This document shows positions 3,901 to 30,915 of a stretch of 31,047 bases of DNA, piece by piece; within the stretch, counting starts at the first letter, position 1, and each line of letters opens with the position of its first letter. The position numbers and the translations under genes were made by a program. The stretch covers positions 1-31,047 of IMG/VR virus record IMGVR_UViG_3300017779_000079. One strand, written 5' to 3'. Origin of the DNA: a virus. The notes beneath the pieces are model-generated. The model was not told the DNA's origin and searched no databases. It saw only the letters and a program-made list of their open reading frames with translations.

Positions 3901-6900
3901 TGGGAAGAGGTTTCAGAGAAGGAAGTACAGGTATACCTGGAGATGTTCTTAATGTAAACCCTGCTGATCCTAGAACATGGACATTACATCATGAAGCTCT
4001 ACATGCTTTATATGCTAATGAGTTCTTTACACCTGAAGAAATAAAAATATTAAACTCTGCTGCTAAAAAGTATTGGAGAAAAGAATACAACACAGATAAA
4101 ATATACAATGCTGAGTATGCAAAAGATAGATCAGTTAATTTAGAAGATATCCGAAATGAAGAAGCTACTGCAAATAAGTTTGCAGCTTACATGGCAGGAC
4201 AGTACTTTCCTAATGGTATTATCGAAAAACTTTTTAGTAGACTAAAAGTATTTTTAAACGGATTAGGTTTATCTTTTCTAAGGTTAGAATACACTAGTCC
4301 TTATCAGATTTTTGATGCTGTTCAATATGGAGCTATTCAAAAAAGAAAAGCTGCTGAAGATGCTAGAGAATTAAAAGAGACTGTAGGTAATAATGCTACT
4401 AAGTTTACTAATAAATCTCAAAAAGAATTTGATGATTTCTTTGAAGGTTCTGTAGTAACAGGAACTTCTTATGAAAATTCTCCACAAGGACTAGGCAGTC
4501 CACTAGAGAATAAAGAATTTAATGATGCTGTCATCAATGGTTACTTACCGAAGATTAGAGCCTTATATAAAAATAAAGAAGATACCTATGCTGCAAAATT
4601 TTGGGATGATGTAGGTCAGCTTATACTATTACTTACAGGAGGCAAAAATTATAAAGGAGTATCTGATTCTAATGATGTGCAAGAAGCTCAAATACTTTTA
4701 AACAGTTTAATATTATCTCTGCAAAACTCTGATAATTTTATAGACTTAAGACAGAATACTAGTTTAATAGAAAGCAGTAGCGCTTCAAATATTACTAACT
4801 TTATCTTAGGAGCAGAACAAACTGAATCTGCAGAGTCTTCTTCTTTTGTAGAGATGAGCATAAGTCCAAGATTTTATCTAAGAGATATTATTAATTTGAT
4901 GGAAATGGCAGGAACAAATCAAGTAACAAAAAGAGATGGAACAGTTAGTAGATTAAATGTAAGAGATTTATTAGAAGCACTAACTGCAATTGAACTTAAT
5001 TTACCTACTGAATCAATGATAGCAGAAGCATCCACTCCTTTAGTTACTTATTATACTAGCAATAAACAGAACCAAGATTTTACAGACACATCTTCACCTT
5101 TTATATTTACTTCACCAGGGTCAGCTTCACAAAGATTTCAAGAGTATTTAAATAATAACAATGTAGATGGCGATGAGTACACAGTAAGTGCTATGCTTAG
5201 TATAAAAAATCCTTTTGTGTTAGAACAACAAAGTATATCTAATACTATTAACGGTTACAAACTAGCAGATCAATTAGTAAAAAATAATATTATAACACTT
5301 GAGCAGTCACAGAACTTTATAATAAAAGCTCAAAAAGGTAATGATGAGTTATTAAAAGATTTAACAATCTTCTTGGACAAAAAAGGATATGATGGATATG
5401 TATTTAAAGATACTAGATATTTCAATGCAAGAGAATATTCTAAAGATTCTAATAGAGAAGCCTATATTCCTTTTAGAAAAAATCAAATATTAAAAGTATC
5501 TAACGAAGCCACTGATTTTGGAAACCCTAACATGGAAGCAGGATATAAGTATATGTTTGATATATCTGATAAACCTATAGATGCACCAATAGAACCTACA
5601 AGAGAGACCTTGCGCACAGAGACAAGGCAAATGGAAAATAAAATTAAAGATGATGAAGATACTTATAAAGAAGGGGGCACGGTAAGTCCATCAAAGTTAG
5701 GTAAGTTTTCTCAGATTGTTAGCCACGCCAGAGCATGGGCAAAGAAGTATCCTTTGTTTACTCCTCTATATGAATTAGTTTCATCTAGAGATAGAAAGAC
5801 TAGTAGTTTAGTTACTCAATACACTGAAAAACTTTTAGAAACTTTTATACCTATCATGAAAGATCCAACAGCAGCAGCTGCTCTTACTAAAGCATTTGAA
5901 ATATCTCAACAAGGATTAGAAGAACAATATACTGACCCTAAGACTGGTGAAATAAAAACAAGGAAAAGACCTGGAGGAAGATATAGAAAAAATGAAAACG
6001 GAGAAATCATATTTGTAGCACAAGAAGATGGCAGAGGTGCTAATAGTACAGTTAAGAAAGGAGATGTGGTAGTTCTAAGAGGTGATGTAGCTAAAGCTTA
6101 TGAAGACGTACAACAAGCTATGTTGATACAGCATCAAGAGATTATTAAAGCTATGCTTGCAAGTGAAAACAATACAGCCATTATAACTCAAGCCATAGCA
6201 ATTTTAAATACATATAGAAGAGATCTGCTAGATGACCCTATGTTTGCAAAGATACTTAATTTACGTGTGTCTTCTTCACAAGATCCTGATAGTGTAAATC
6301 CCTATGAAGATTTAACCTTACAAGAACTAGAAGCAATTAGAACAGAACTCTCTAGTACTAATACTTTTCTTCAACCTGATGGAAACATTAGAGAAGATAT
6401 TATAAATCCTGTTACTAATATTCTAGGAGGGAAGACTGCAAACTTAAATGCTATTATTAATGATGTGAGACAATATGAAAAGTTTAAAGAGAATGATTAC
6501 ATTCCTTTACAAAGGTATGGTGGTTATTTTATTACTGTTAAAAATAGAGAGACTCAAGAGTTAGTAGAGTATAGACAATTTAATAAAGGTAAAGTTTTTA
6601 ATAAGGTATTAAATGATGAACCTAACATAAGACAAGACTTAGCTGATAAATATAATCAAGAAACCTATGAGATTAGTGCAACTCAAGAAGTAGAGATTGA
6701 AGATCTGAGAAGAAATTTAGGTGCTGACTTTTTAACTTTAGATACAGTGGCTGGAACTTTGTCTGATGTAAATGCTAATAGTTATATTGAAGTTAGAAAA
6801 GAACTAGAGAAACTTTTAGTTGAAAAATATGGCATAAATAAAACTCCTGGTTTTAATATGTTCTTAAGCGCTAGAAAAGAAATAGGAGGTGTGCCAGGAT

Positions 6901-8765
6901 TTGAAACAGATTTTGCTAGATCTATCGCACAGTATGGTCAAACATCTAGTGAGTTTGCCTCAAGAACTAGATACAATGCTTCAATAAATTCTGCCGCTAA
7001 TAGATTAAAAAACAAAGATATAAATCCAGATGATAACTTAAGAAAAGCTGCAATAAAATGGTTAGACTATGTTAACGATCCTAAACAAGAGTGGGCTAAC
7101 ACTAGAAGATTAGGTTTCTGGTGGTTCTTAGGGGGCAACTTATCATCAGCTTTACTACAGCTAATGAGTAACGTACAGTTTGTTGGTCCTATGTTATCTC
7201 AGTTTGCTAATACACCTTTAGCTATTAAAGAATTAGGTAAAGCTACTGCTGAAGTAACTAAAATGTTAAAGCTTGGTAATCTAAAATTTCAAGATCAGTT
7301 CTTAGATTTTACATTACTACCTGATGATGTAAAAGAAGATGCCTTAAAAGATATAGCTAGTGGTTTACTAAAACAAGGATCTGCTATGAGAGAGGCTGGC
7401 ATGCCTACAGGGTCAGCTATTAATATAACTAGAAGCAAAGCTAGAAATGCTTTTAGAACAGCTGAGAACACTATAATCGGTGGTGCTTTTAATACTATGG
7501 AAACTGTATCTCGTTTGATTGCTTATATTGCTACGCATAGACTAGCTCAAAATCCAGACTTTAGAAAAAAAGCAGATGACTTTTTATCTGCTGATCAACA
7601 ATATGCTTTTAATAAAAATAATAATGATGGGATAGTTACTCCTAGAATACTAGCACAACACATGGTGGAGGAAGGTTTTGGTATTTATGGTAAATTAAAT
7701 AGACCACAAATTATGAGAGGCTTTGGATCTACAATTTTCTTATTTCAAACTTACGTCAGTCAGATGTTTAGTTTATTATATAGAATGGCTACAGCAGGAG
7801 GTAGAGGTAACAAATTAGTAGGTCAAAAAATATTTGCAAAAATGCTTTTAATGTTACTGATTACTGGAGGAGCTTTTGGATTACCAGGAGCAGATGATGC
7901 TTCTTGGTTAGCATCTACTTTAGGTAGACTATTCCCAGGTGTGGATGTAGATCTTAGAAAAGAATTTAGAGAGATGTTAAGTGATGCTGGTTTACCTGCT
8001 AAAGCTATAGAGTATTTTGAAAATGGAGTTATTCAAGCTGCTGCAAATGTTAACGTACAACAAAGATTAAGTTTAGGAGTTATACCTGGATCAGGTCAAA
8101 TCCGAGCGGTTGCTGGAGCTTTAGGTATTAGTAGTGGTGCTAGAATAGAAGAGTTTTTAGGAGCACCTGGTGCTATTGTTTTTCAAAATGCAAGAAGTCT
8201 TATAGAAGAACTTAGAAGCACAGGAGGTATTAGTTTTAAGGGAGCATATAGTGCTTTAACTCCTACGTTCATTAAGAATTTAGGAAAAGGATATAGTTAC
8301 TCAGTAAATGGTGGTAGAGCTTACTCGAAACAAGGTACTTTAATAACAGACAATCTAAATGCATTAGACATTGTCTTACAAGCTGCAGGTTTTACCCCTA
8401 CTGAAATATCTAAAAACAGAGAGCTGTTAAGATTAGAAAGATTTAACGGAGGTGCTACACAAGTTATTAGATCTAGATTTAACAGAAGAATTAAAGAAGC
8501 TTTTAGAATAGCTATGATTGGTAGACAAGATAGTGATGTAAAGGCAATACAAGAATCTCAAAAACAATTACAAGAAATTATGATTGACTTATACAAATTT
8601 AATAGTTCACAAGAATGGACTTATCAATTCCAGCCAGACTTGTATAGACTATTACAAGAAGCTATGCAAGATGTATACAAGTCTATGCGATTATCATCAC
8701 AAGGTTTAAAAGACATGACTATGAATATGTATGATGCTCAGTTGCTAGGGGTTAAGACCCCCTAA
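972..8765 (+). CDS. Giant polyvalent-type virion protein (2597 aa) with zincin and ADP-ribosyltransferase-like regions
   Basis: This is probably a protein packaged in the particle and injected with the DNA, built like the large polyvalent proteins of phages and conjugative elements. Residues about 120-370 are Gly/Ala-rich with hydrophobic stretches (around 195-260 and 345-365) that could insert in membrane. A zincin motif HEALH spans residues 1007-1011, with candidate third ligands Glu1063/1064 in an NEEATA context. Residues about 1350-1510 resemble the ART domain of polyvalent proteins: a YYTS start, a middle IKNPF segment, GYDGYVF, then IPFRKNQILK. Long helical regions and a hydrophobic C-terminal third (about 2040-2350) resemble the LPD38-type tail region. 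No polymerase motifs were seen, so an N4-like virion RNAP is unlikely. It uses ATG after a poly-A tract with no strong Shine-Dalgarno. Domain names are from memory of the families and need a profile search. Confidence 0.85.
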   Translation: MAVEFETYDKFLTTSQSREKLDATLTPYDSSTPTGFSSAPRSSEDYKYVALNRKPDAPKIAFSKDASDEEITAFLKSGAAQQAAKDMGYLYTFGLNARRFDDPDDLDDTALTKGFKAGWSGLKQIGQGALGTIYDIVGAEGLEDLSNKAIQQYQLDGAAKQFYTNSKGEIVPFETSMEKVFESDEKFSNFVDWLAFNVGNAAATSVPMFAASVINPALAVGLAYGMGVGDSRISQLEATGFTNANAGLSLAMGVPYAAVEYMFDGGAVLGRIVKNKMAKGTSSSYMKNIGKGILGTSLKESFAEGTQEVITSTAGATEKGLLPGESIKNSLAQLYNDKDFYKQVAESAAAGFAGGGPFGIAGGTLKTIRYNAETKEKKSLTERLEGTIDNATIEEDNDYFDQAGLNKNRRYTVGGEYTALDVNKEVIKDSEGNSITPEYVVKGTAKVNGVDSIVLQSTLRGIENPVIAIAKKDVSLLTQVEAPETGDGSTPPEEEEETIEMMNTNSFNAKKRELKKRGWIVEDFKPQDSSKNAEAIRRQDVADAVDDELNYISPEERQKLAALGYGDLGLRPQGPLPEGVNIGDGSFGESEILSMERDIVVPKGQEKGKEKTSGRLRLEDILNNNIPYEPRVLTEKYVSGTKKTEPLSQEELVAQGITTGYMDSYTDDQIIQEQEANNRAIEQATDSEVIEILKEDNRRLSAVSELKNSYPVVRYNKLKNLIRGTLNSIGGESVIYKASNIPNRINKLTESLERIDRAPGITAQDKDQIKFNLSLQLEFYKRQKRLLQELFISLGQDTLTDTEITNLTLTNKSLKEIITAIKGKETKVYKQETTYLYQKGLDDMSEKDFEKLSDKEFDELLEKEPGLSLKQLKELAEEAAAEQAYRKVISEKRAKLEKVTKKLAGMPKIPEATDLSSDLLNDIPKIKEIFRQELDRLGLDKVDLDIVIRMFMKKGNPNGLFIAAPEIAKQSIKVALMGRGFREGSTGIPGDVLNVNPADPRTWTLHHEALHALYANEFFTPEEIKILNSAAKKYWRKEYNTDKIYNAEYAKDRSVNLEDIRNEEATANKFAAYMAGQYFPNGIIEKLFSRLKVFLNGLGLSFLRLEYTSPYQIFDAVQYGAIQKRKAAEDARELKETVGNNATKFTNKSQKEFDDFFEGSVVTGTSYENSPQGLGSPLENKEFNDAVINGYLPKIRALYKNKEDTYAAKFWDDVGQLILLLTGGKNYKGVSDSNDVQEAQILLNSLILSLQNSDNFIDLRQNTSLIESSSASNITNFILGAEQTESAESSSFVEMSISPRFYLRDIINLMEMAGTNQVTKRDGTVSRLNVRDLLEALTAIELNLPTESMIAEASTPLVTYYTSNKQNQDFTDTSSPFIFTSPGSASQRFQEYLNNNNVDGDEYTVSAMLSIKNPFVLEQQSISNTINGYKLADQLVKNNIITLEQSQNFIIKAQKGNDELLKDLTIFLDKKGYDGYVFKDTRYFNAREYSKDSNREAYIPFRKNQILKVSNEATDFGNPNMEAGYKYMFDISDKPIDAPIEPTRETLRTETRQMENKIKDDEDTYKEGGTVSPSKLGKFSQIVSHARAWAKKYPLFTPLYELVSSRDRKTSSLVTQYTEKLLETFIPIMKDPTAAAALTKAFEISQQGLEEQYTDPKTGEIKTRKRPGGRYRKNENGEIIFVAQEDGRGANSTVKKGDVVVLRGDVAKAYEDVQQAMLIQHQEIIKAMLASENNTAIITQAIAILNTYRRDLLDDPMFAKILNLRVSSSQDPDSVNPYEDLTLQELEAIRTELSSTNTFLQPDGNIREDIINPVTNILGGKTANLNAIINDVRQYEKFKENDYIPLQRYGGYFITVKNRETQELVEYRQFNKGKVFNKVLNDEPNIRQDLADKYNQETYEISATQEVEIEDLRRNLGADFLTLDTVAGTLSDVNANSYIEVRKELEKLLVEKYGINKTPGFNMFLSARKEIGGVPGFETDFARSIAQYGQTSSEFASRTRYNASINSAANRLKNKDINPDDNLRKAAIKWLDYVNDPKQEWANTRRLGFWWFLGGNLSSALLQLMSNVQFVGPMLSQFANTPLAIKELGKATAEVTKMLKLGNLKFQDQFLDFTLLPDDVKEDALKDIASGLLKQGSAMREAGMPTGSAINITRSKARNAFRTAENTIIGGAFNTMETVSRLIAYIATHRLAQNPDFRKKADDFLSADQQYAFNKNNNDGIVTPRILAQHMVEEGFGIYGKLNRPQIMRGFGSTIFLFQTYVSQMFSLLYRMATAGGRGNKLVGQKIFAKMLLMLLITGGAFGLPGADDASWLASTLGRLFPGVDVDLRKEFREMLSDAGLPAKAIEYFENGVIQAAANVNVQQRLSLGVIPGSGQIRAVAGALGISSGARIEEFLGAPGAIVFQNARSLIEELRSTGGISFKGAYSALTPTFIKNLGKGYSYSVNGGRAYSKQGTLITDNLNALDIVLQAAGFTPTEISKNRELLRLERFNGGATQVIRSRFNRRIKEAFRIAMIGRQDSDVKAIQESQKQLQEIMIDLYKFNSSQEWTYQFQPDLYRLLQEAMQDVYKSMRLSSQGLKDMTMNMYDAQLLGVKTP

Positions 8766-12191: not shown

Positions 12192-12638
12192 ATGCAAAAA
12201 AATTTAGAGGAGAGAGTAAAGGAACATGAGGGCTTTAGGAGTTCCGTATATTTAGATTCACTTGGCAAAGCCACTATAGGCTGGGGCCATTTGATAACTA
12301 AGGAGGACAAATATGAAGAAGGTATTGAATACAGCGTGGAAGATCTTGAAGAAACCTTTCAACTGGATCTGGAAAACGCTCGTCAAGGGGCTATGCGCGT
12401 TGCTCAAAGCAATGATATCGATCTTGACGATCACGAAAGTATCGTTAGAGAAGTTCTTATAGAAATGGTATTCCAACTTGGCGAAAGTGGAGTTGGTAAA
12501 TTTAAAAAATTCTTAAGTAACTTGTCTCAAAGGAAGTACGAAATTGCATCTGATGAAATGCTAGACTCTCGTTGGGCTATGCAGACACCGCACCGTGCAG
12601 AAAAACTATCTTATATTATTAGAGTGTTAGCACATTAG
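12192..12638 (+). CDS. Endolysin, T4-lysozyme-like muramidase, 148 aa
   Basis: Cleaves the beta-1,4 bond between N-acetylmuramic acid and N-acetylglucosamine. The family triad has exact T4 spacing: E13, D22 and T28 within EHEGFRSSVYLDSLGKATIG, followed by WGHLIT. Length is typical for a single-domain endolysin (T4: 164). There is no signal peptide, so it depends on the holin. Shine-Dalgarno AGGAGA lies upstream. The stop TAG overlaps the GTG start of the next gene. Confidence 0.93.
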   Translation: MQKNLEERVKEHEGFRSSVYLDSLGKATIGWGHLITKEDKYEEGIEYSVEDLEETFQLDLENARQGAMRVAQSNDIDLDDHESIVREVLIEMVFQLGESGVGKFKKFLSNLSQRKYEIASDEMLDSRWAMQTPHRAEKLSYIIRVLAH

Positions 12639-13276
12639 TGGCGTTCTTAGTAGCTAATGTTCCGCCAACTGAAGTCCTTGTTAAAAAGGAGTATCTCTAT
12701 GATTTTGAGAGGGGGCACGGTGAGTATGAACCAGGTATATGGATTACTGCCAAATCAATCCAAGGGCGTGCGTTATACTTTGAGACCTATCTCTACGAAA
12801 CGGGCGCTCTCTACGATAAACTCCCTATATCGGCATTCGTCTGGAAAGAAACGCAAGAACAGATGGAGCTCGAGGATCTAGAGCTTTGGGATTGTTTTAG
12901 CTACCACATCTCAGTTATACAAAAGGTGAGTGTTGGGTCGGGGAAATGTAAATACAAGGCTCCAAACGGGAATTTTTATTATGGGGAGTATTTATATACT
13001 ATAGATAGTTGTCATCCTGAATATAACATACCAGATATTGGGTATTCTGAAGTACCTACACAACATAAGTCTTTCAATATTATACAATTAGACAACGGAC
13101 ACTTTGCGGCTCAGCCTAATAACAGGGTTATATTTTATGATAAGTCTTTATCCCCAAAGAAGATGAGGTTCCCAGACTATAAGGTATCTACTATTGAATA
13201 TGGTGTTGAGAATAAATCTAAGTATACTGCAGGGGATGATAATAATTTCTTTTATGAGTTCTCAGAACAGGACTAG
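12638..13276 (+). CDS. Conserved phage protein of unknown function, 212 aa
   Basis: Starts with GTG overlapping the endolysin stop (TAGTG); no better start with a ribosome binding site was seen. It has a soluble, mostly beta-rich composition with many aromatic residues. The segment from about residue 24 to 70 (RGHGEYEPGIWITAKSI, then GRALYFETYL, GALYDKLPISAFVW) resembles a hypothetical protein I recall from several marine phages. No catalytic motif is evident. It is the last gene of the plus-strand late block, so a lysis-accessory or virion role is possible but not shown. Confidence 0.78.
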   Translation: MAFLVANVPPTEVLVKKEYLYDFERGHGEYEPGIWITAKSIQGRALYFETYLYETGALYDKLPISAFVWKETQEQMELEDLELWDCFSYHISVIQKVSVGSGKCKYKAPNGNFYYGEYLYTIDSCHPEYNIPDIGYSEVPTQHKSFNIIQLDNGHFAAQPNNRVIFYDKSLSPKKMRFPDYKVSTIEYGVENKSKYTAGDDNNFFYEFSEQD

Positions 13277-16660: not shown

Positions 16661-17912
16661 GTGCTTTAGGGAAAACAACTCCATCTTTTACTTCGATGTA
16701 GCCAGAGTCTTCCATAGCTTTGACTGTTTGCTCCAATTCGCCAGGGTTAGGTATTTTACGTAGCAACTCCCTCTTAAATTTCTTTAGATGTACGTATTTA
16801 TTTCCGTTATTTTCCATAGTATTCTTAAACCATGTACCCATATCTTGGGCTATCTTACCTGTTCTACCCATACCAAATCCTGCCAATGCTTTAGGCATAT
16901 GTTCTTCTACTTCAAACATTAAGTCTTTAGTACGTTGCCAATGATCCCAAGTAATAATCCTACTACTACTATTAGAAGCTGATATTGACAAGGCTATCTT
17001 AATGAAGTGAGATACTCTACGCTGAGAATACTCAGATAGGTTAGGGTCGGTAGGCTCAGGCGGTAAGCCTGCTTCTATATCTGAATTGATTTTATCAAAA
17101 GCTTTAGGGTCAAAATGCGCAGGACCATACATCTTAGATATTTGAGATAAGTCTTCTCTCAAGTTCATTATAGTTTGATCATCAATTCTTTTTTGTAAAA
17201 GAGATTGAGGAATTTTTGGACCATCATAAAACACAGGTATGATTCTTGATAACAAACCTTGAGACCTCGCATCTTCAGGTAGGTTGTCTACAAATTGTTC
17301 AGGGGTAGCACAAGCTATCCAATTTAAACAAGGACCTTTAATAATATATTCTCCTGATGTTTTTGTTTTATGGGAGTACTCTTCTTTACTATCCCACATA
17401 TCTGTTAGGAACATCTGTAAATATCTCTCGTGTCTAGATAAGAATGTACCTAACTCAGATGTAACTAAAGTAAGAGAGCCATCATGAAACTCATCACTTG
17501 GTGTTGACAATCTCATATCCCAACGAGAAGACTTACACATATCTACTGCAAGTTTCTCAGGAGTAATCCTATCTTGTATACAATACAAAGGGTACTCTCT
17601 CATACCGTACTGATCTAATCCAGAATTAAATTGCTCATGGTCTGGTTGAGATCCAGGTGGTGTAGTTAACTTACTAAATATCTTACTATATGGTAGAACA
17701 AGACTAACTGATTTGTTACGCCCAGGTCCAGCTATCATGACAACGAATATATTAGATCGTATATCGTAGTTCGCCATTGGAAACCAGACGCGTCTCCCGA
17801 TAGCACCAGCTACTGAAGAAAGCGCAGACCATCTCCTAAATATTTTAGGAATAGGACTATCAGCACTCGCTTCAACACAAGCATCTATGTAATCTTTATA
17901 TATTCTAGACAT
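16647..17912 (-). CDS. DUF3987-like replicative helicase/ATPase, 421 aa
   Basis: Probably unwinds DNA at the phage fork. The N-terminus IPKIFRRWSALSSVAGAIGR, followed by a hydrophobic strand and AGPGRNKS, fits the DUF3987 helicase-like family, which stands in for DnaB-type helicases in many phages. The Walker A is atypical: GPGRNKS (62-68) has Asn where Gly-Lys-Ser normally has Gly. A Walker B-like strand is SLTLVTSELGTF (about 145-156). The last 70 residues look like a winged helix. There is no zinc-binding primase domain. The start overlaps the polymerase stop by 8 nt, and the gene lies between polymerase and RNR, which supports a fork role. Confidence 0.75.
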   Translation of the reverse strand: MSRIYKDYIDACVEASADSPIPKIFRRWSALSSVAGAIGRRVWFPMANYDIRSNIFVVMIAGPGRNKSVSLVLPYSKIFSKLTTPPGSQPDHEQFNSGLDQYGMREYPLYCIQDRITPEKLAVDMCKSSRWDMRLSTPSDEFHDGSLTLVTSELGTFLSRHERYLQMFLTDMWDSKEEYSHKTKTSGEYIIKGPCLNWIACATPEQFVDNLPEDARSQGLLSRIIPVFYDGPKIPQSLLQKRIDDQTIMNLREDLSQISKMYGPAHFDPKAFDKINSDIEAGLPPEPTDPNLSEYSQRRVSHFIKIALSISASNSSSRIITWDHWQRTKDLMFEVEEHMPKALAGFGMGRTGKIAQDMGTWFKNTMENNGNKYVHLKKFKRELLRKIPNPGELEQTVKAMEDSGYIEVKDGVVFPKALEHV

Positions 17913-19449
17913 GTTTCTCCCATACTGTTAAATCTTTCCACGTGTTACCAACCTCGGCAACTGATGGAATAATAAGTTCTCTATCACCAACCTTGATAGG
18001 GTTAGTCATACAATTAATAATCTCAGGCATAAGTTCATCAACTCTATCCGTTGGCACTTGTCCTAGAATAGCGTCATGAACTTGCCCAAGTACTTGTACC
18101 CCTCTACCTTCGAGTTCATTCCACACACGATAAAGACCCATGTTCAATAGATCTCCTATGGTAGATTGGGGTACGTAGGCAATAGCCTCACGCAAAGTAG
18201 AGGCATCACTGAGTCTTCCCCAGAATTGTCTGCGCCTACCTAGTGGTGTCACTAGTGCCCCCTCCTGTTCTAACTGTTTATGCACATCCGAGTGCCACTT
18301 TTGTATACCAGGAAATGCTCCCTGAATACGCAAGTACTTTACTTTATCTCCAAACTCAACCCCATAGGAGGCTAGTTCATCAAAGCCTCCCTTGGGATCT
18401 TGCTTGTGCCAACGTGCTACAGAATCGACAGGTATAACTCCGCCATAATATAACAGTTGGAATCTCGTAGCGTGTGATATCTTAATCTGCAAATGTCTAC
18501 CTAGTGAGGTAGCTGAAAGACCATAGTTGGTGCCATGCCCTGCTCTCTTACATATATCCCTATAACTAAAATGTAGGTAAAAAGGTTTGTCAGCTAAGGC
18601 ACGCTCTTGTTTCGCGTCTCCACTCCAACCCATATTAGGCCACACCATTTTAACAACTGTAGTATGAAGGTCACCACTCTCACATGCATTGATGTACCCT
18701 TCATCGCCAGTAATATATGCAACCACGCGTGACTCTGCTTGTTCAAGGTCTGCATAAAACATAGTCATACCTGGATCAGGTACGAAAATTGAACGTAAGT
18801 CTTTCGTGATGTTTTGTAGATTAGTACCAGTACCCCAAGGCGATTCCGATGATGACCATCTTCCTGTCTCAGTTCCTGCTACGTTATATGAACAACGTAT
18901 ACGATTGTCTTTATCTTTAGTAGTATCTAATACGTTGAGTTGTTTATCAATGTCACGTAGTGCCATGATAGTATTACAGAATGGTCTTGCTCTAGGATAT
19001 TCTTTACGTAAATGTTCTAGTGCTTCTCTATCTGTAGAAACTTTTTGCTTACCTTTCTTGTAAGAAATAACTGGAGGTAAAGTTAGTGACTTATAAAATA
19101 AGTCTTGTAATTGTTTTGGTGATGCGTGATTTAGATCTTTATCTACTACAGCATTAGAAAATAAATTAAGCATGCGCTCTAACTTTAATCTCTTATCTTT
19201 AAGAGGGGCACGCATATTTTTAACCTTATCATTGTCCACTAGCAAACCACGTTGCATCATTTCCATCGCAGGTTTTAAACTGTCTAGTTCAAACTGATAA
19301 GTTTTAGTAGTCTCTTCGTCTAATTCTTTTTTAATCTTCTGCCAAATCTCTAGAGTAACAGCACAGTCTAGCGCACAGTATGTCCAAAGAGTTTGTTCGG
19401 AATCAAGTTCTATATTTTGAATGTCTACATTCTTGATTATTTTTGCCAT
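17905..19449 (-). CDS. DNA polymerase family A, polymerase part with only the end of the exonuclease domain, 514 aa
   Basis: Replicative polymerase. Motif A is DLEQAESRVVAY with D234. Motif B is R297-x3-K301 ... Y309-G. Motif C is VHDAI with H458-D459-A460, where the usual Glu after Asp is replaced by Ala. The residue at the position of E. coli Phe762 is His305, while Phe, Tyr or Leu are the forms usually reported in phages. The N-terminus supplies only the third exonuclease motif, Y24-x3-D28 (YCALDCAVTLEIW). Exo motifs I and II are in the 367 aa protein encoded two genes upstream, so a working proofreading domain would need both chains. GGGAG lies ahead of the ATG. Confidence 0.93.
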   Translation of the reverse strand: MAKIIKNVDIQNIELDSEQTLWTYCALDCAVTLEIWQKIKKELDEETTKTYQFELDSLKPAMEMMQRGLLVDNDKVKNMRAPLKDKRLKLERMLNLFSNAVVDKDLNHASPKQLQDLFYKSLTLPPVISYKKGKQKVSTDREALEHLRKEYPRARPFCNTIMALRDIDKQLNVLDTTKDKDNRIRCSYNVAGTETGRWSSSESPWGTGTNLQNITKDLRSIFVPDPGMTMFYADLEQAESRVVAYITGDEGYINACESGDLHTTVVKMVWPNMGWSGDAKQERALADKPFYLHFSYRDICKRAGHGTNYGLSATSLGRHLQIKISHATRFQLLYYGGVIPVDSVARWHKQDPKGGFDELASYGVEFGDKVKYLRIQGAFPGIQKWHSDVHKQLEQEGALVTPLGRRRQFWGRLSDASTLREAIAYVPQSTIGDLLNMGLYRVWNELEGRGVQVLGQVHDAILGQVPTDRVDELMPEIINCMTNPIKVGDRELIIPSVAEVGNTWKDLTVWEKHV

Positions 19450-19986: not shown

Positions 19987-21090
19987 TCATTCTTTCCTGG
20001 TGCTCTTTGAGAACTTAGCCATAGTTTTCCAAGCACCCTCATTAGTATAGATCGAACCTAAGTAGCCCAATCCTTTTTGTTGTTCTGGTTGTAGCGAATG
20101 TTGTGCGTGCATTGTATCATGCACTACACCTGATACTAGTATATTCTTTTTATATCGTAACCAAGATACATCATACGTTTGATTCTGTGCTACCTTAGTT
20201 ATCTTATCGTTCTCTAGTATTTTCTTTATCCATTGCCATGCCTGTACCTCTTCATCATAAGAAGTCCAATAGTTCTTCAGGTCTTTTCTTCCATCGTAAA
20301 ATGGAACTACGAGAGCAACACTATCACTAGGAGCAAACCCAATGCAAGTAATGTCACCTGATGCGGTCTCGATGTCGAAACTAAGAGGTACGTCTTCATT
20401 GTCCTCTCGTATATATTTTTCTTCAAAGTCTTGAAGGTCTTTAATAGTTGGTTCAATCCATAACTCTCTTTCTACTATTTTAGTTTCTTTAGTTTCTGAT
20501 TCCAGTAATGCTTTCTTTATATCGGCAAGCACTATCGGTCTGAAATCGTAGTTTCTAACTATGGCACTAGGACTATACGTGGCAAGAACTTTTGTTTCCT
20601 CACTTAAAGTTTTAGAATTTAAGATTGTTCCCCTGTAAGTTCCAACTTTGTCTAGTCCTGTCAGCGCCCATAATGCCAAGCTACCCATAGCAATAATGAT
20701 ATTAGGTTTCACAGCATTAAGCTCGTTTGCTAATCTCTCTATGTCTGATTCCTTTTCTTCCTTCAGATAACCAAACCCACTCAAAGAATATTTACTACGC
20801 CAGTCTGTTGTCTTACATAATGCTTTGTACTGTGCACGATTATGAAAGAAGTATGCTGGGTTTTCTTGAGCAGGCTTAGTAGAGATTGCGTATGTCAGCA
20901 AGCAGTTCTCCACACCTATGTCTAATATCTCGACTAGCTGGTTGAACATTCTACCAGCAGAACCTGTCATAATTTTGCCAAGTCTAGCCTCATCGTTAGT
21001 AGGAAAGTCAAAGACAAAAGCAACATTACATTGCAGATCGTTCTTTGGTTTCTGAGATGGAACTGGTTTAAGAACTGCGTGCTGTGTCAT
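19987..21090 (-). CDS. UDG-like domain fused to the first part of a DnaQ-like 3'-5' exonuclease, 367 aa
   Basis: Residues about 1-195 resemble the family 4/5 uracil-DNA glycosylase fold: a motif-I region with the G...TGSAGRMFNQL end, the central IIIAMGSLALWALTG (131-145), and YSPSAIVRN (172-180) where HP is expected. Motif I lacks the usual GE-PG, so glycosylase activity is doubtful. Residues about 230-345 are family A polymerase proofreading sequence: Exo I D239-x-E241, Exo II N303-x3-D307, and H324-D325. The protein ends after LGSIYTNEGAWK plus a basic tail and lacks Exo III, which is encoded in the polymerase gene two ORFs downstream. Probably both chains form the proofreading unit (inference). 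Confidence 0.82.
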   Translation of the reverse strand: MTQHAVLKPVPSQKPKNDLQCNVAFVFDFPTNDEARLGKIMTGSAGRMFNQLVEILDIGVENCLLTYAISTKPAQENPAYFFHNRAQYKALCKTTDWRSKYSLSGFGYLKEEKESDIERLANELNAVKPNIIIAMGSLALWALTGLDKVGTYRGTILNSKTLSEETKVLATYSPSAIVRNYDFRPIVLADIKKALLESETKETKIVERELWIEPTIKDLQDFEEKYIREDNEDVPLSFDIETASGDITCIGFAPSDSVALVVPFYDGRKDLKNYWTSYDEEVQAWQWIKKILENDKITKVAQNQTYDVSWLRYKKNILVSGVVHDTMHAQHSLQPEQQKGLGYLGSIYTNEGAWKTMAKFSKSTRKE

Positions 21091-24821: not shown

Positions 24822-24935
24822 TTATGTTATTAAATGATAAATAGCACTAAATAATAGTAGCGAGGGTATTCCAAACCAAGTCATTACTATTAAAAGCTTA
24901 GTAAATGCAATGCAAAATTCTTCAAAGTCTGTCAA
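24822..24935 (-). CDS. Single-TM micropeptide, 37 aa, TTG start
   Basis: The TTG start overlaps the TGA stop of the upstream GGCT-like gene (TTGA), with GGAG six bases ahead. The sequence TDFEEFCIAFTKLLIVMTWF, followed by a second hydrophobic run, is an acidic N-terminus and then one long membrane helix. It fills an otherwise empty 124 bp. Too short for standard gene finders. Confidence 0.6.
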   Translation of the reverse strand: MTDFEEFCIAFTKLLIVMTWFGIPSLLLFSAIYHLIT

Positions 24936-25345
24936 GGATTACTCCATTCCATTACATTTCTTTTTATCTTTATGTTTTCTCTAGTCAAGAAGCTAGGTGC
25001 GTAAGGTATATCTTCCATGACATACATCTTAACAATCATTTGGGTTTTATTACTTAGGCGAACTAAGTTCTCTACCATTTTATATGATGCCCCTCTCTCC
25101 ATTCTATCTATGTAATGATAGATAGCTTCGTTAGTTATTTTAAAAACCTCGCCTCTTATCTTATACTTAAATACATCAGCATTATCTTTACCTCTGTACA
25201 CTATAGGATAAGCATTACTTAAATCTCCCATGTTAAAGTTTGAGTCTACAGTTATTGCAGTATCTATAAACTCTTGCGTCTTAAGAAGATCGTGTAGTCT
25301 TTCGTTTCTTTTTAGCGTTCCGTACACGAACAGGTATTCTTCCAC
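24932..25345 (-). CDS. Gamma-glutamylcyclotransferase (AIG2/GGCT)-like protein, 137 aa
   Basis: The family cleaves gamma-glutamyl amines or peptides, releasing 5-oxoproline. The signature YLFVYGTLKRNERLH (residues 4-18) is the phosphate-loop-like YGTLK motif, and the length fits a single AIG2-like domain. A Glu-containing catalytic region is expected in the middle; GASYKMVENLVRL is a candidate. The start is chosen as GTG at 25345, which begins just before the motif and has a GGAA-rich site, rather than ATG at 25387. It overlaps the zincin gene by 65 nt in another frame. Its presence in the same strand block as an amidoligase and a glutamine amidotransferase may be meaningful. Confidence 0.78.
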   Translation of the reverse strand: MEEYLFVYGTLKRNERLHDLLKTQEFIDTAITVDSNFNMGDLSNAYPIVYRGKDNADVFKYKIRGEVFKITNEAIYHYIDRMERGASYKMVENLVRLSNKTQMIVKMYVMEDIPYAPSFLTRENIKIKRNVMEWSNP

Positions 25346-25685
25346 TTTCTTTTCCTTCCCTTTCCATTTCAAACTTAATCCAATCACCTAGTCCACTATG
25401 ACATAGCACTTCGGTTATAAAATTACCATATGAATTAACAATCGTTTCTTCTTCTTTTTCTTTCAAATGATATTGATAATAACCTACATGCAGTAGTTCA
25501 TGCAGTACTACATTGATTGCGTCAGCACCCCCTAGTTCAATCATCTCTTTGTCTAGAAAGATTTGATAGGGAGGTTTAATTACAAACGTACCTTGAGCCT
25601 CACCAACTTCGTACATTAATTTGTGAGGTATACAAACTAACTCAACTTTAAATGCACCAACTCTTATGTACTTAGGTAGTTTCAT
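25281..25685 (-). CDS. Small zincin-like metallopeptidase, 134 aa
   Basis: VVLHELLHVGYYQYHL carries HExxH (H82-E83-x2-H86 by my count, within one or two residues), followed 12-15 residues later by an EEET segment that could give the third zinc ligand. The N-terminal half is beta-rich (YIRVGAFKVELVCIPH). Short phage zincins like this are known but their substrates are not. The C-terminal 22 residues are Lys/Arg-rich and are the part overlapped by the GGCT-like gene. Confidence 0.78.
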   Translation of the reverse strand: MKLPKYIRVGAFKVELVCIPHKLMYEVGEAQGTFVIKPPYQIFLDKEMIELGGADAINVVLHELLHVGYYQYHLKEKEEETIVNSYGNFITEVLCHSGLGDWIKFEMEREGKESGRIPVRVRNAKKKRKTTRSS

Positions 25686-27121: not shown

Positions 27122-27430
27122 ATTATAATCCTTTCTGTGAATAATTCAATGACTTTTTTGTCGCACTAGTATAATACCGAGAGAACACCGAATGTCCTCG
27201 TATTACACCATAACCGAGTACCCCACCCCCACCCCTCTAATATACGATTTTAATTATATTATTTTTTTATTATATATAGATATATATAAAGGGTTAAGGT
27301 ATGACATACCAGGAATGGGTGTTATTCGGGGTTTGTCGGTGATCTGTCGGTGTTATATTGTGAGTAAGGGGGTGTTGCAATTCATTTTGCCGTGCCCCCT
27401 CACTCGTGAGGTATTAGCCATGCTAATCTT
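27122..27430. other. Gene-free 309 bp region, candidate replication origin
   Basis: The only intergenic stretch above 300 bp on either strand. It holds: a C-rich tract CCCC-A-CCCCC-A-CCCC (27221-27235); about 55 bp almost wholly A/T (27240-27291); an inverted repeat GGTATG-A-CATACC (27298-27310); direct repeats TGTCGGTG (27334-27341, 27345-27352) spaced 11 bp, one helical turn; direct repeats GGTGTTAT (27318-27325, 27349-27356); a copy of the dispersed GGGGGCAC motif; and hairpins CCTCAC-TC-GTGAGG and TTAGC-CAT-GCTAA. An AT-rich core beside short iteron-like repeats is the usual look of an origin. A weak promoter for the 65 aa gene may lie near 27171-27198. Confidence 0.5.
27390..27399 (-). 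repeat. Copy of the dispersed GGGGGCACGG motif in the gene-free region
   Basis: On the minus strand the motif directly follows the hairpin CCTCAC-GA-GTGAGG. Other exact copies of GGGGGCAC (either strand) are at 2055, 5673, 9656, 9850, 12711, 13801, 14391, 18255 and 23486; seven-base versions are at 11155, 19205 and 22093. Confidence 0.8.
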
Positions 27431-28207
27431 TTAAGTTAATGGGATTGAATACATAGAGTCATCCCATTCAGTAGGGTATCGATTATCAGCTAGATGTTTT
27501 TCGTGGTCTTTAAATACAATGTTGAATTTATTTCTACCTAAACAGGCACTAAATAACTTCATTGATTTTGGTATACCTTTTGGCATATTGTGTGATCTAA
27601 ATGCTACATCAAAAGGATTGAGTGTCGGTCCACTACTACTGAAGAAGGGTAATTTATCTCGCAGCTTAGGATATAGATTAGGATATGATTGCCATATGTT
27701 AGAACGTTTCATGAACCTTCTAAGTCTTGCGGAGGTTTTATCTTCCATTTCAGTTGCATCATAATCGTAATAAGATACTCGTGTACCCCTAGCTATTAGT
27801 ATATACTCAGAAATATTTCTTCTGCTAACAGAACTAGCATTACCCAAGAGTTTTAATCGCTCAGTTAGATTCTGCCTAAGCTTATCAACAGAACTTCCGT
27901 CTTGTTCTATAACTTTATACCTATGTAATGAAGGGTATATAGCAGGTAGAATTTTGGCGATGCTCCAATTTATATTTTTCATATATAGCGAATCGTTTTC
28001 GTATTCATGATACAAAGCTGTACGTACATTGATATTATCATTAGCAATTATGTGACTAGGTAGTTGTCTAGCTTCTTGTACATTCATTAGAACCTTAGAC
28101 TTACTTCCTTTGCGTGATACTTCAATGAAGTTATCGCCTGTGAATAATGATACACCAAACAGTGTATCATTACCTATCTTATTCATATGGTATACAGATT
28201 TAGTCAT
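27431..28207 (-). CDS. Unknown protein coupled to glutamine amidotransferase, 258 aa
   Basis: I do not recognise this protein. It is soluble, basic and without transmembrane segments. The N-terminal 60 residues are beta-rich (GVSLFTGDNFIEVSRKGSKS). The middle has a helical part (SSVDKLRQNLTERLKLLG). Later come ARLRRFMKRSNIW and a Pro/Gly-rich loop (FFSSSGPTLNPFDVAF). The start overlaps the GATase stop (TAATG), so it is made in step with it and could be a third component or target of that system. It ends at the candidate origin. Confidence 0.75.
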   Translation of the reverse strand: MTKSVYHMNKIGNDTLFGVSLFTGDNFIEVSRKGSKSKVLMNVQEARQLPSHIIANDNINVRTALYHEYENDSLYMKNINWSIAKILPAIYPSLHRYKVIEQDGSSVDKLRQNLTERLKLLGNASSVSRRNISEYILIARGTRVSYYDYDATEMEDKTSARLRRFMKRSNIWQSYPNLYPKLRDKLPFFSSSGPTLNPFDVAFRSHNMPKGIPKSMKLFSACLGRNKFNIVFKDHEKHLADNRYPTEWDDSMYSIPLT

Positions 28208-29175
28208 TATTTATTACCTTTCTTTGTTGATTTGTATTTAACCTGAGTGAGTTCATGTACAGAATCATACAATTCTTCTTCATCAGCGTAGCATAAGTCA
28301 TGCAATAGTTCTGCCGTACCTGAGGGATTCATTTGTACAATCTGATTTATCTCATCACTTGTAGCACCATAGATATCACATAGGTTATACAGTTCACCAT
28401 CTCTACACATATCCCATTTCTTACTTAGGGGTACGTGTTCTTCTTTGTCGTAGTCATAGTTATCTACGAATGAGTGACCTAAATCCCAATTATCATAGTA
28501 ATCACTTTTGAGTCTGTGATTAGTACCATAGGTGGTGTATGTTAGCTTAGGTTTATTACTTCCCAATGTATCTGTTATAGGATCGTAATCCATACCCATA
28601 CCTCTTGATAGAGAGTACGTATTGGATAGCCACATATCATTCTCTAGTGTTTCACCCTCATCTTCGTTGATGATTGTGAATTGCTTTGTCTTACTGTCTA
28701 GAAACAATAGCTTATCACTACCAATACTTTCAGCAATCATTTCTTGCCATTCAGTATTGTATAACAATTCAGGATTGTTAGCTAACATTGGACGTAGTAC
28801 ATACTTAACGTATTGATGAGTATCGGATTTGTCTTTGTCGATCATAGGCGTTGGTAATGCAGGTCCGTTATGCATCATGAAAACATCACGCCCATGCTCT
28901 TCAGCATTTAGTACACTAAATGGGTGACAGTTTCCTTTGTTGCTACTACCAGCAGTAGTGAATCTCCAATGTAATCCCATTGGAATCTTCATGTCTTTGT
29001 ACTCATCAAATAGCTTGACGATATCGTCAGCAGTCTTAGGTACAATCTTTCTTGTTTGTATTCTACCTTTACGTAGAAACATGATACCAAATCCGTCAGA
29101 ATTATTCTGATAAGCTGATTTGATTAGGTTTTCTTTGACTTCGGATGAGTCATTTGTTTTAACTATTAAGCACAT
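28207..29175 (-). CDS. Class II glutamine amidotransferase (Ntn hydrolase), 322 aa
   Basis: Expected to release ammonia from glutamine using the N-terminal Cys2 exposed after Met removal. Supporting motifs: MCLIV at the start, NNSDGFGIMF (24-33), GLHWRFTTAGSS with the conserved Arg, CHPFSV, and MMHNG with the Asn-Gly oxyanion region. These fit the YafJ-like GATase II group. The C-terminal 120 residues are acidic and Tyr/Asp-rich and outside the family core. Its first ten bases overlap the end of the amidoligase gene, so ammonia could be passed to that ligase (inference from pairing, in line with described amidoligase/GATase operons). Confidence 0.88.
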   Translation of the reverse strand: MCLIVKTNDSSEVKENLIKSAYQNNSDGFGIMFLRKGRIQTRKIVPKTADDIVKLFDEYKDMKIPMGLHWRFTTAGSSNKGNCHPFSVLNAEEHGRDVFMMHNGPALPTPMIDKDKSDTHQYVKYVLRPMLANNPELLYNTEWQEMIAESIGSDKLLFLDSKTKQFTIINEDEGETLENDMWLSNTYSLSRGMGMDYDPITDTLGSNKPKLTYTTYGTNHRLKSDYYDNWDLGHSFVDNYDYDKEEHVPLSKKWDMCRDGELYNLCDIYGATSDEINQIVQMNPSGTAELLHDLCYADEEELYDSVHELTQVKYKSTKKGNK

Positions 29176-30518
29176 TCGTTTACCTCACTTTCGTTAATAG
29201 TATTTATTCTAGCTTTGCTTTTAACGTAATCGTTTTTAACAAGCCACTTATATAGGTAGGGATATATTGCTCTGTTGCTTTGCAATCCTACCCAGTCTAC
29301 AAAGTTTTCGTATGTCAGATTAGACACAGATGTAGTATCTATATCGTAAGCTGATTGTTTTGCAAATCTTACCAAAGCATGTACAAATTCTAGGTTTCTA
29401 AATATACCAAACTTCTTGAGGTTGCCTCTGAATATTCGGAACTCAATGGTACTAGCTTTGCCTAGATTTAAAGCTTCATACTTATCGCTTCTTTGCAATC
29501 CATTCTTAATATGTTTATCAGATTGTCTTGCCCATTGGCTAGATGATCTACCTGCGATCTTGTGAACGAACTCTCTATTGTGTTTGCTATTGATGAACAC
29601 TAATAGTTTACCAATATCTAAAGGTGTCACAAACTTTCTGCCTACGTGGATATGTGTACCACATGTTTCAGTATGCCATGATTTGATACGCCCTGTAAAG
29701 TCTTTCTTACTCTCACAGAATTTTGACCAATAGTATTTCTGTGCTTTTAAGGTAGCTGGTGCAGTCACAATCTCACCACCATTACGAAGCGATCCGTCAT
29801 ACTTTACCAAAGCGAAGTCTCGCATTGTACTATGTATATCTGATACTACACCTCTAAGGCATATATCATTACGAGCTTCCCATTCACCCTCATATCCTAG
29901 TAGCATTTCGTCATCTGTATCACTTGGTAGACTTACCTTGTTAGGTAAAGTATCAAGCACATTGTAATCATAGGCGTATCTACCATAACTTTCTTCATCC
30001 TCATCATCATAGTATTCTTCATCATCATAAGGAAAATCATCTTCATGGTAATACATTCCGTCATCCTCATGATATCGGTATGATGCATCAAGACACCCAC
30101 TGCAAACAAACCTGTCAAGATTTGCACCTTCAATATAGGTTGCCTCATCTTCATGCATATAGGTATCACAATCCATACACTGTCTGAGATCGTAGTCCGT
30201 ACAACTTTCAGTGATAAGCTTGTATTTAAAAGGTATTATTCTTCTACTTCTTTTACCTTTTTCTACTATATATTCTTCATTAGACGGTGTATCGATTAGA
30301 TTTATATATAGAAGTTTTGTTTCTTTAATTACTGTATCCATAAGGTTGAAGCAGTCTACTATATCATCATTGTTAAAATATTTTTCTATAGCATTTGAAG
30401 ATGTATTGAGTATATTTGAATAACGCATAAACTTTAATACATCATAGTACGATTTACCTAATGTAAGACAAGAAGTATTTCGTAGAGTTTTTAGTAGTGT
30501 TTGTTTTGTTTCTGTCAT
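29166..30518 (-). CDS. Amidoligase (COOH-NH2 ligase, glutamine-synthetase fold) with zinc ribbon insert, 450 aa
   Basis: Predicted to form an amide or isopeptide bond at a carboxyl group using ATP. Amidoligase_2-type motifs in order: GYEGEWEAR (208-216), YDGSLRNGGEIVTAP (240-254), CGTHIHVGR (286-294), NREFVHKIAGRSSSQW (314-329) and ASTIEFRIFRGNL (355-367). Ahead of it are an N-terminal helical region, a four-Cys zinc ribbon (C114, C117, C139, C142) and a very acidic Asp/Glu/Tyr stretch (150-180). I chose ATG at 30518: GAGG is eight bases away and the start overlaps the stop of the 43 aa gene (ATGA). A start 25 codons earlier has no site and would cover that gene. Confidence 0.85.
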   Translation of the reverse strand: MTETKQTLLKTLRNTSCLTLGKSYYDVLKFMRYSNILNTSSNAIEKYFNNDDIVDCFNLMDTVIKETKLLYINLIDTPSNEEYIVEKGKRSRRIIPFKYKLITESCTDYDLRQCMDCDTYMHEDEATYIEGANLDRFVCSGCLDASYRYHEDDGMYYHEDDFPYDDEEYYDDEDEESYGRYAYDYNVLDTLPNKVSLPSDTDDEMLLGYEGEWEARNDICLRGVVSDIHSTMRDFALVKYDGSLRNGGEIVTAPATLKAQKYYWSKFCESKKDFTGRIKSWHTETCGTHIHVGRKFVTPLDIGKLLVFINSKHNREFVHKIAGRSSSQWARQSDKHIKNGLQRSDKYEALNLGKASTIEFRIFRGNLKKFGIFRNLEFVHALVRFAKQSAYDIDTTSVSNLTYENFVDWVGLQSNRAIYPYLYKWLVKNDYVKSKARINTINESEVNECA

Positions 30519-30646
30519 GAATAATACCTCATTATTATTATTAAAAATATAGCTAGGATTGTAGCAAATACCGAAGTAATTACAAGTAGCCATTCTGTCG
30601 CATTAGAAATAAAGTTTTCTAAGTTAACCTTTTTGTTAAAGAGCAT
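30515..30646 (-). CDS. Single-TM micropeptide, 43 aa, between the 89 aa gene and the amidoligase
   Basis: MLFNKKVNLENFISNATEW, then a membrane helix of about 20 residues (LLVITSVFATILAIFLIII), ending MRYYS. The ATG overlaps the stop of the upstream 89 aa gene by one base (TAATG), with GGGAG just ahead. Its TGA overlaps the amidoligase ATG (ATGA). Overlap at both ends is good evidence for translation. Confidence 0.7.
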   Translation of the reverse strand: MLFNKKVNLENFISNATEWLLVITSVFATILAIFLIIIMRYYS

Positions 30647-30915
30647 TATGCTCCCTCGTTCATAGTTGACGCTTGTACCTGTAAACATTCTTGATGATTT
30701 AAACTAGCATCAGCATATACTGTTATAAATCCTTGCTTCTTATACATAGCATTAAATCGTGAATAGGTTGCGGGGTAAGGCACTCCATTCCTATCTAAAT
30801 AAGGGGTTTCTGTATTTAGATATTTTGATACGCTTTCGTAAGTAGCTTTTACATTTCCGAATACTTTAGGATAGTCAATAAAACTACCATATAATATATT
30901 AACAATTCTACTCAT
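30646..30915 (-). CDS. Unknown protein, 89 aa, first gene of the amidoligase cluster in the window
   Basis: I do not recognise a family. It is basic and Tyr-rich, with a mixed fold (NILYGSFIDYPKVFGNVKAT, then TYSRFNAMYKKQGFITVYAD), ending in MNEGA. The start ATG at 30915 follows an A/G-rich site. A TTG 13 codons earlier lies inside a hairpin and is less likely. It could be a substrate or partner of the downstream ligase; only position suggests this. Confidence 0.65.
   Translation of the reverse strand: MSRIVNILYGSFIDYPKVFGNVKATYESVSKYLNTETPYLDRNGVPYPATYSRFNAMYKKQGFITVYADASLNHQECLQVQASTMNEGA

Follow-up and report, generated by a model that had tools for sequence, protein, structure and literature searches.

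A reduced phage module of amidoligase, glutamine amidotransferase and gamma-glutamyl cyclotransferase with a predicted new component, p258

A stretch of viral DNA of 31,047 nucleotides (nt) (IMG/VR record IMGVR_UViG_3300017779_000079, positions 1-31,047), referred to here as the window, carries five genes overlapping end to end, among them those for an amidoligase and a class II glutamine amidotransferase (GATase), and raises the question whether this cassette is an undescribed system and which molecule it would modify. The window comes from a marine phage and covers part of its genome, with gene content of the tailed-phage type. An earlier note on this DNA had listed the five genes with coordinates and overlap lengths that all proved exact, and had presented them as the window's best candidate for an undescribed system; the latter claim has to be given up, as phage modules of amidoligase and GATase are already published for phiEco32, LUZ24, RIO-1 and others. 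We found that the whole is a reduced version of the published phage module of amidoligase, GATase and gamma-glutamyl cyclotransferase (GGCT), and not a full member of it. Support for the biochemical class is good, and the target molecule is conjectural.

The ligase consists of an N-terminal helical region, a zinc ribbon (C114-x2-C117 ... C139-x2-C142), an acidic linker rich in Asp, Glu and Tyr (residues ~143-185) and a C-terminal glutamine-synthetase-like COOH-NH2 ligase domain (~200-433); both the ribbon and the acidic insert described earlier were thus located, the former at C114-C142. Three ribbon cysteines, C114, C117 and C142, are kept in 73 of the 75 ligase homologues, and C139 in 61. 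PHROG amidoligase families matched the ligase at E 1.8e-8 and 5.8e-8, the best PHROG match being phrog_16683 (E 6.8e-23), and Pfam Amidoligase_2 (PF12224) gave a single-sequence match below threshold (16.4 bits, cut-off 22). When an AlphaFold2 model built from a 13-sequence alignment (mean predicted local distance difference test score, pLDDT, 66.7; core mostly 72-94) was compared with known structures by Foldseek, the top matches were YbdK, glutamine synthetase and Dop, with E values down to 3.6e-5, and GmaS and PafA were also among the significant ones. For residues ~200-450 the VIA Z values were 12.2 for YbdK, ~10 for glutamine synthetases and 9.5-9.7 for Dop/PafA, so the fold comparison suggested in the earlier note retrieved the expected relatives. 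Six residues (E210, E212, D241, E249, H289 and H291) were invariant in all 75 homologues, and E359 and R361 were present in 74, the remaining one having a gap. The resulting pattern, E-x-E / D-x7-E / H-x-H / E-x-R, and its spacing we take to be those of E129/E131, E212/E220, H269 and E357/R359, which bind metal and substrate in glutamine synthetase. With YbdK, GmaS, glutamine synthetase and PafA-Dop the window ligase shares both the residues for metal and substrate and the predicted fold (~200-433), whereas the zinc ribbon and acidic linker are added to it and its ammonia is probably supplied in trans by the GATase. PHROG families, fold and invariant residues all agree with the earlier assignment as an amidoligase, and this protein (P0001) is, by its model, a predicted COOH-NH2 ligase of the glutamine synthetase fold whose N-terminal part bears a zinc ribbon. 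In one related contig (G060, 37021-38283) the ligase gene contains one in-frame stop, reflecting either a decayed copy or a sequencing error.

The GATase retains C2, R71, N103 and G104 in all 72 homologues; D118 is kept in 71 and falls in a gap in the other. We take these to be the counterparts of GlmS C1, R73, N98-G99 and D123, the complete glutamine-hydrolysis set of class II enzymes. Its single-sequence match to Pfam GATase_4 also stayed below threshold (17 bits, cut-off 23, E 0.0029), while the GATase profile A2 matched the GATase of StenR_269 (E 1.5e-19), phiEco32 gp83 (3.7e-5) and LUZ24 gp19 (6.5e-5). The profile searches proposed in the earlier note therefore had a divided outcome, PHROG amidoligase families being recovered and both Pfam families falling short of their cut-offs, and the two assignments are based on PHROG families, predicted fold and conservation of catalytic residues. 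In agreement with the earlier reading of an N-terminal Cys2 enzyme, this protein (P0002) is by sequence a class II GATase with all catalytic residues and a predicted activity. A search of Genome_contigs with the GATase profile found no relatives and gives no host clue.

We then asked how regularly the two enzymes occur together. A search with the ligase alignment yielded 80 viral loci, and contigs ending at the ligase were left out of the pairing count. The GATase start lies between -10 and ~+50 nt from the ligase stop in all searched loci with room for it. Counting all loci, including cultured phages and not all of them independent, the GATase directly follows the ligase in 86 and does not in 2, the exceptions being distant homologues; this is the neighbourhood that the earlier note had predicted. 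AR1086-1 has no GATase adjoining its ligase; C75C1 and RHph_N3_13 have theirs farther downstream. We conclude that ligase and GATase very probably constitute an amide-forming enzyme pair.

An iterative profile search over 6,806 open reading frames (ORFs), blind to their position, gave 70 matches to p258, the last protein of the cassette, in GATase-bearing loci, and 68 of these were directly 3' of the GATase, which bears out the earlier view of the 258-residue protein as a real part of the locus. The GATase/p258 overlaps recur as 1, 4, 8 or 11 nt, and family members are ~214-318 amino acids (aa) long. No sequence relation above chance-level matches was found in Pfam, PHROG, NCBIfam or the PDB. 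For the predicted structure (pLDDT 72; predicted template modelling score 0.71) no Foldseek match reached E <= 0.001 and VIA Z did not exceed 2.3, which does not in itself prove the fold new. Homology of p258 to the 190-205 aa companion found in classical modules (phiEco32 gp85, LUZ24 gp17) was considered and rejected, no relation being detectable (hhalign probability ~0.1%); a degenerate ligase copy was likewise rejected, as p258 has no profile relation to the ligase. With a ratio of nonsynonymous to synonymous substitution rates (dN/dS) of 0.47, p258 evolves faster than the ligase (0.28) and the GATase (0.13). It was not found in the L006/L008 clade, the L009-L018 clade, G075 or G076, nor in Marvin, MEP401, ctgrD200, C75C1, RHph_N3_13 or the classical module phages. 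Thus, as judged from sequence, p258 is a new protein family and the third component of this clade's cassette. Its constant place and higher rate of change suggest substrate recruitment or scaffolding as its most likely role.

The five genes had been rightly described as one translational unit, but the unit extends further than the earlier note saw, since a GGCT gene lies downstream in the same operon (PF06094, E 2.6e-12, 47.8 bits, cut-off 22.8). In a survey of 53 related contigs GGCT was present in 41, at 1.9-4.3 kb downstream in 37 and at 10-12 kb in 4, and the 12 others all stop short of its expected place for their clade, so that every related contig long enough carries it. In a control set of 26 contigs chosen as DNA polymerase relatives, all 9 ligase-bearing ones also had GGCT, and those devoid of ligase, GGCT or both mostly end before or near the region. 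Since no clearly informative ligase-free relative was found among the 26, co-occurrence within the clade is not independent evidence. Independent linkage comes from two phages: in C75C1, 3' of the amidoligase, a single protein (L035 5001-5897), annotated merely as gamma-glutamyl cyclotransferase, combines an N-terminal GATase with a C-terminal GGCT; RHph_N3_13 has a GGCT-like gene overlapping its GATase. Owing to this linkage we consider it likely that GGCT works in the same pathway as the amide-forming pair. A GGCT with two in-frame stops, again a decayed copy or a sequencing error, was seen in contig G055 (5426-5690, behind L112). The GGCT gene of the window is overlapped by a gene for a 134-aa HELLH-motif protein (25281-25685, minus strand) with weak similarity to PhageMetallopep/SprT-like proteins; a similar protein adjoins GGCT in L039 and L006, and it is possibly a peptidase linked to the module.

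The successive overlaps of p89, tm43, ligase, GATase and p258 are 1, 4, 10 and 1 nt (Table 1), and the gene order is repeated in tens of further viral contigs. A homologue of p89, which has no Pfam or NCBIfam match, lies ahead of micropeptide and ligase in 27 related loci. In nearly all p89-bearing loci a hydrophobic ORF of 31-48 aa separates p89 from the ligase; many of these ORFs carry the motif [IV][DN][FL][ED]...AT[EQK][WC] followed by the transmembrane segment. The dN/dS of p89 against L003 was 0.32, and pairwise NG86 values for tm43 were 0.2-0.7, mostly near 0.3; at the sequence level these values indicate purifying selection on both and support the earlier claim of a real membrane micropeptide. 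With the order recurring and the small ORFs having dN/dS below 1, the arrangement is more than chance. The enzymes and p258 occur with neither p89 nor the membrane peptide detected in 37 loci, so the two small proteins are accessories of one sub-clade. Thus, of the five-gene neighbourhood that had been expected in other phages, ligase, GATase and p258 recur widely, while p89 and tm43 are confined to that sub-clade. The small proteins or p258 had also been put forward as acceptors of the modification; as a general acceptor the small ones are ruled out by the many enzyme-pair loci lacking them, and p258 too is absent from several clades.

Table 1. Positions of the cassette genes and of GGCT in the window
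Feature	Position	Strand	Basis or remark
p89, 89 aa, function not assigned	30646..30915	-	sub-clade-specific accessory
tm43, 43-aa single-span membrane micropeptide	30515..30646	-	hydrophobic ORF between p89 and ligase
Amidoligase, 450 aa	29166..30518	-	PHROG families, predicted fold, catalytic residues
Class II (N-terminal nucleophile, Ntn) GATase, 322 aa, begins M-C-L-I	28207..29175	-	catalytic residues, profile relation
p258, 258 aa, predicted new family	27431..28207	-	position-blind profile matches
GGCT (AIG2-like)	24932..25387	-	PF06094; downstream in same early operon; exact start uncertain

How the cassette relates to known modules can be judged from its nearest counterparts. Published accounts describe modules of amidoligase and GATase, many with GGCT, in phiEco32, LUZ24, RIO-1, PSA-HP1, PhiM6, Marvin and OM43 phages, and for the module of phiEco32, LUZ24, RIO-1, PSA-HP1, PhiM6 and StenR_269 they predict peptidoglycan modification (PMC5498523 and PMC6256558, citing Iyer et al. 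2009 and Hardies et al. 2013); in these accounts the phage authors infer cell-wall modification for the classical modules, and the peptidoglycan change is a prediction there too. In LUZ24, RIO-1, phiEco32 and StenR_269 the genes for amidoligase, GATase, ATP-grasp and GGCT occupy an early part of the genome, and a further COOH-NH2 or glutamine-synthetase-like ligase is annotated. The classical module and the window both have an amidoligase near a class II GATase, with a GGCT belonging to the same early operon and the replication genes coming after; in the classical modules the three shared enzymes sit ahead of primase. The zinc ribbon on the ligase sets the window apart, and p258, p89 and the micropeptide are new. 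The OM43 phages MEP401 and MEP402 and Marvin resemble the window in architecture, with tandem ligase and GATase, the same 10-nt ligase/GATase overlap in MEP401, and a CxxC zinc-ribbon-like N-terminus in the Marvin ligase. Their ligases are ~24-31% identical to that of the window, and neither p258 nor a PF06094 GGCT was found in MEP401 or Marvin.

Sequence and model establish the fold as predicted, the catalytic residues, the gene linkage and the position in an early operon; from there we propose a reduced, membrane-linked variant of the amidoligase/GATase/GGCT module with an envelope molecule as its most likely target, a reading to which we give an even chance. The GATase would hydrolyse glutamine at Cys2 and pass the ammonia to the zinc-ribbon ligase by transfer between proteins; the ligase, with Mg-ATP, would phosphorylate a carboxylate group, most likely on a side chain of the gamma-glutamyl or a similar type, and form the amide when the bound acyl phosphate receives the glutamine-derived ammonia. 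GGCT may remove or recycle gamma-glutamyl products, p258 may act as an adaptor for substrate recruitment or as a scaffold, and the micropeptide may dock the complex at the inner membrane. The target could belong to the host envelope, for instance a lipid-linked peptidoglycan stem peptide, altered early in infection, and the benefit might be exclusion of rival phages (superinfection exclusion) or wall stabilisation. AsnB/LtsA-type enzymes serve bacterial peptidoglycan amidation, and GatD is a class I GATase. With MurT-GatD and AsnB/LtsA the window shares the scheme of a ligase plus a glutaminase, amidating stem-peptide carboxylates, whereas their ligase folds are others (Mur ligase, AsnB synthetase), so we use them as a working analogy and not as homologues. 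Amidation of bacterial peptidoglycan by MurT-GatD is reported in PMC3267633. An envelope target, taken on its own, is somewhat less likely than not, and we hold it tentatively.

Several observations weigh against this proposal. GGCT lies 1.9-11.6 kb away from the ligase-GATase pair rather than next to it, and the complete genomes of Marvin, ctgrD200, AR1086-1 and MEP401 yielded none, so it is not always needed. The membrane peptide is missing from many enzyme-bearing loci, and no feature of the window sequence is specific to peptidoglycan. For the ATP-grasp enzyme (RimK/Ddl-like), the probe PF14243 missed positive controls and was replaced by a custom profile, A6, which finds the enzyme in LUZ24, RIO-1, phiEco32 and UFV-P2 and did not find it in the window fragment or in 11 relatives of 37-61 kb. 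Neither was a second COOH-NH2 ligase found there with PF14395, the sensitivity of which is limited: it matches LUZ24 and phiEco32, and RIO-1 and StenR_269 escape it. The accessible literature contains no measured activity for any phage member.

YbdK being the best structural neighbour of the ligase, and GmaS matching too, the enzymes could instead act on small metabolites, the ligase making a gamma-glutamyl amide or amine, the GATase giving ammonia or glutamate and GGCT degrading the product to 5-oxoproline, whereby glutamine, glutathione or amine pools would be reshaped during replication. The substrates of GGCT in cells are small gamma-glutamyl compounds, and the operon continues into nucleotide and DNA metabolism genes; a zinc ribbon, a long acidic linker and a conserved extra subunit are, however, unusual for a free amino-acid ligase, and a membrane peptide would be unnecessary, so we regard this as rather unlikely. 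The presence of Dop and PafA among the structural matches points to proteins as targets, with the ligase amidating, deamidating or cross-linking carboxylates of host or phage proteins in a PafA/Dop-like manner and p258 or the zinc ribbon selecting them. Zinc ribbons often bind macromolecules, and p258 is a conserved third subunit whose rate exceeds that of the GATase, but no Pup-like modifier was recognised among the genes of the locus, where no search was aimed at one; pairing with a GATase suggests ammonia rather than a protein amine, and p89, the micropeptide and p258 are each absent from some clades, which leaves no universal substrate. We consider protein modification distinctly unlikely. 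Hypermodification of phage DNA or nucleotides, in which GATase and ligase would build an amide on a modified base, accords with the early position among DNA-metabolism genes and with the role of amidotransferases in known base-modification pathways, yet the family-named proteins of the window, itself a partial genome, include no recognised base-modification enzyme, and amino-acid carboxylates are the substrates of the ligase fold's known relatives; it is highly improbable.

As for the surroundings, in relatives with more flanking sequence the cassette lies near the start of an early operon, oriented away from terS/terL, and is followed by genes for an exonuclease, a Sak4-like protein, a polymerase and ribonucleotide reductase. 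Among cultured phages, Caulobacter phage Kuura is the closest by polymerase; no cassette is annotated in it, and neither GGCT nor p258 had a match there. Directly 3' of the p258 gene, ~310 bp (27122-27430) with no obvious gene, reaching to the next small gene, contain A/T-rich and G-rich stretches and may hold a promoter or terminator; a sigma-70 promoter scan gave fewer sites than shuffled sequences. Weak matches to PADLOC defence families were judged chance. The family-A DNA polymerase is divided over two minus-strand ORFs (17905-19449 and 19987-21090) with polymerase and exonuclease parts and two small genes between them. On the plus strand, a 2597-aa protein (972-8765) matches the NCBIfam domain PLxRFG (E 1.8e-53) and, below threshold, the ADP-ribosyltransferase ART-PolyVal, which marks it as a polyvalent and possibly injected protein. 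Also on the plus strand, a 212-aa protein (12638-13276) adjoining a lysozyme-like gene matches phrog_3704, 'ferredoxin' (E 7e-90), a label that looks doubtful because NCBIfam gives no match.

Returning to the amidation module with a proposed envelope target, descriptions of phage amidoligase modules go back to 2009, and the accessible literature holds no demonstrated substrate for any member. More speculatively, ligase, GATase and p258 could be a three-subunit, membrane-docked amidation machine in which p258 chooses the substrate, and zinc ribbon and micropeptide place it on an envelope or host-protein target unmodified by known phage enzymes, although we think this doubtful. The set in the window comprises one ligase, one ammonia supplier, one conserved extra subunit and GGCT; as the extra ligases that complicate phiEco32 and LUZ24 were not detected in it, it is among the simplest in which to seek the modified molecule, and the p258 family, unnamed until now, would offer a specific way to approach substrate choice.

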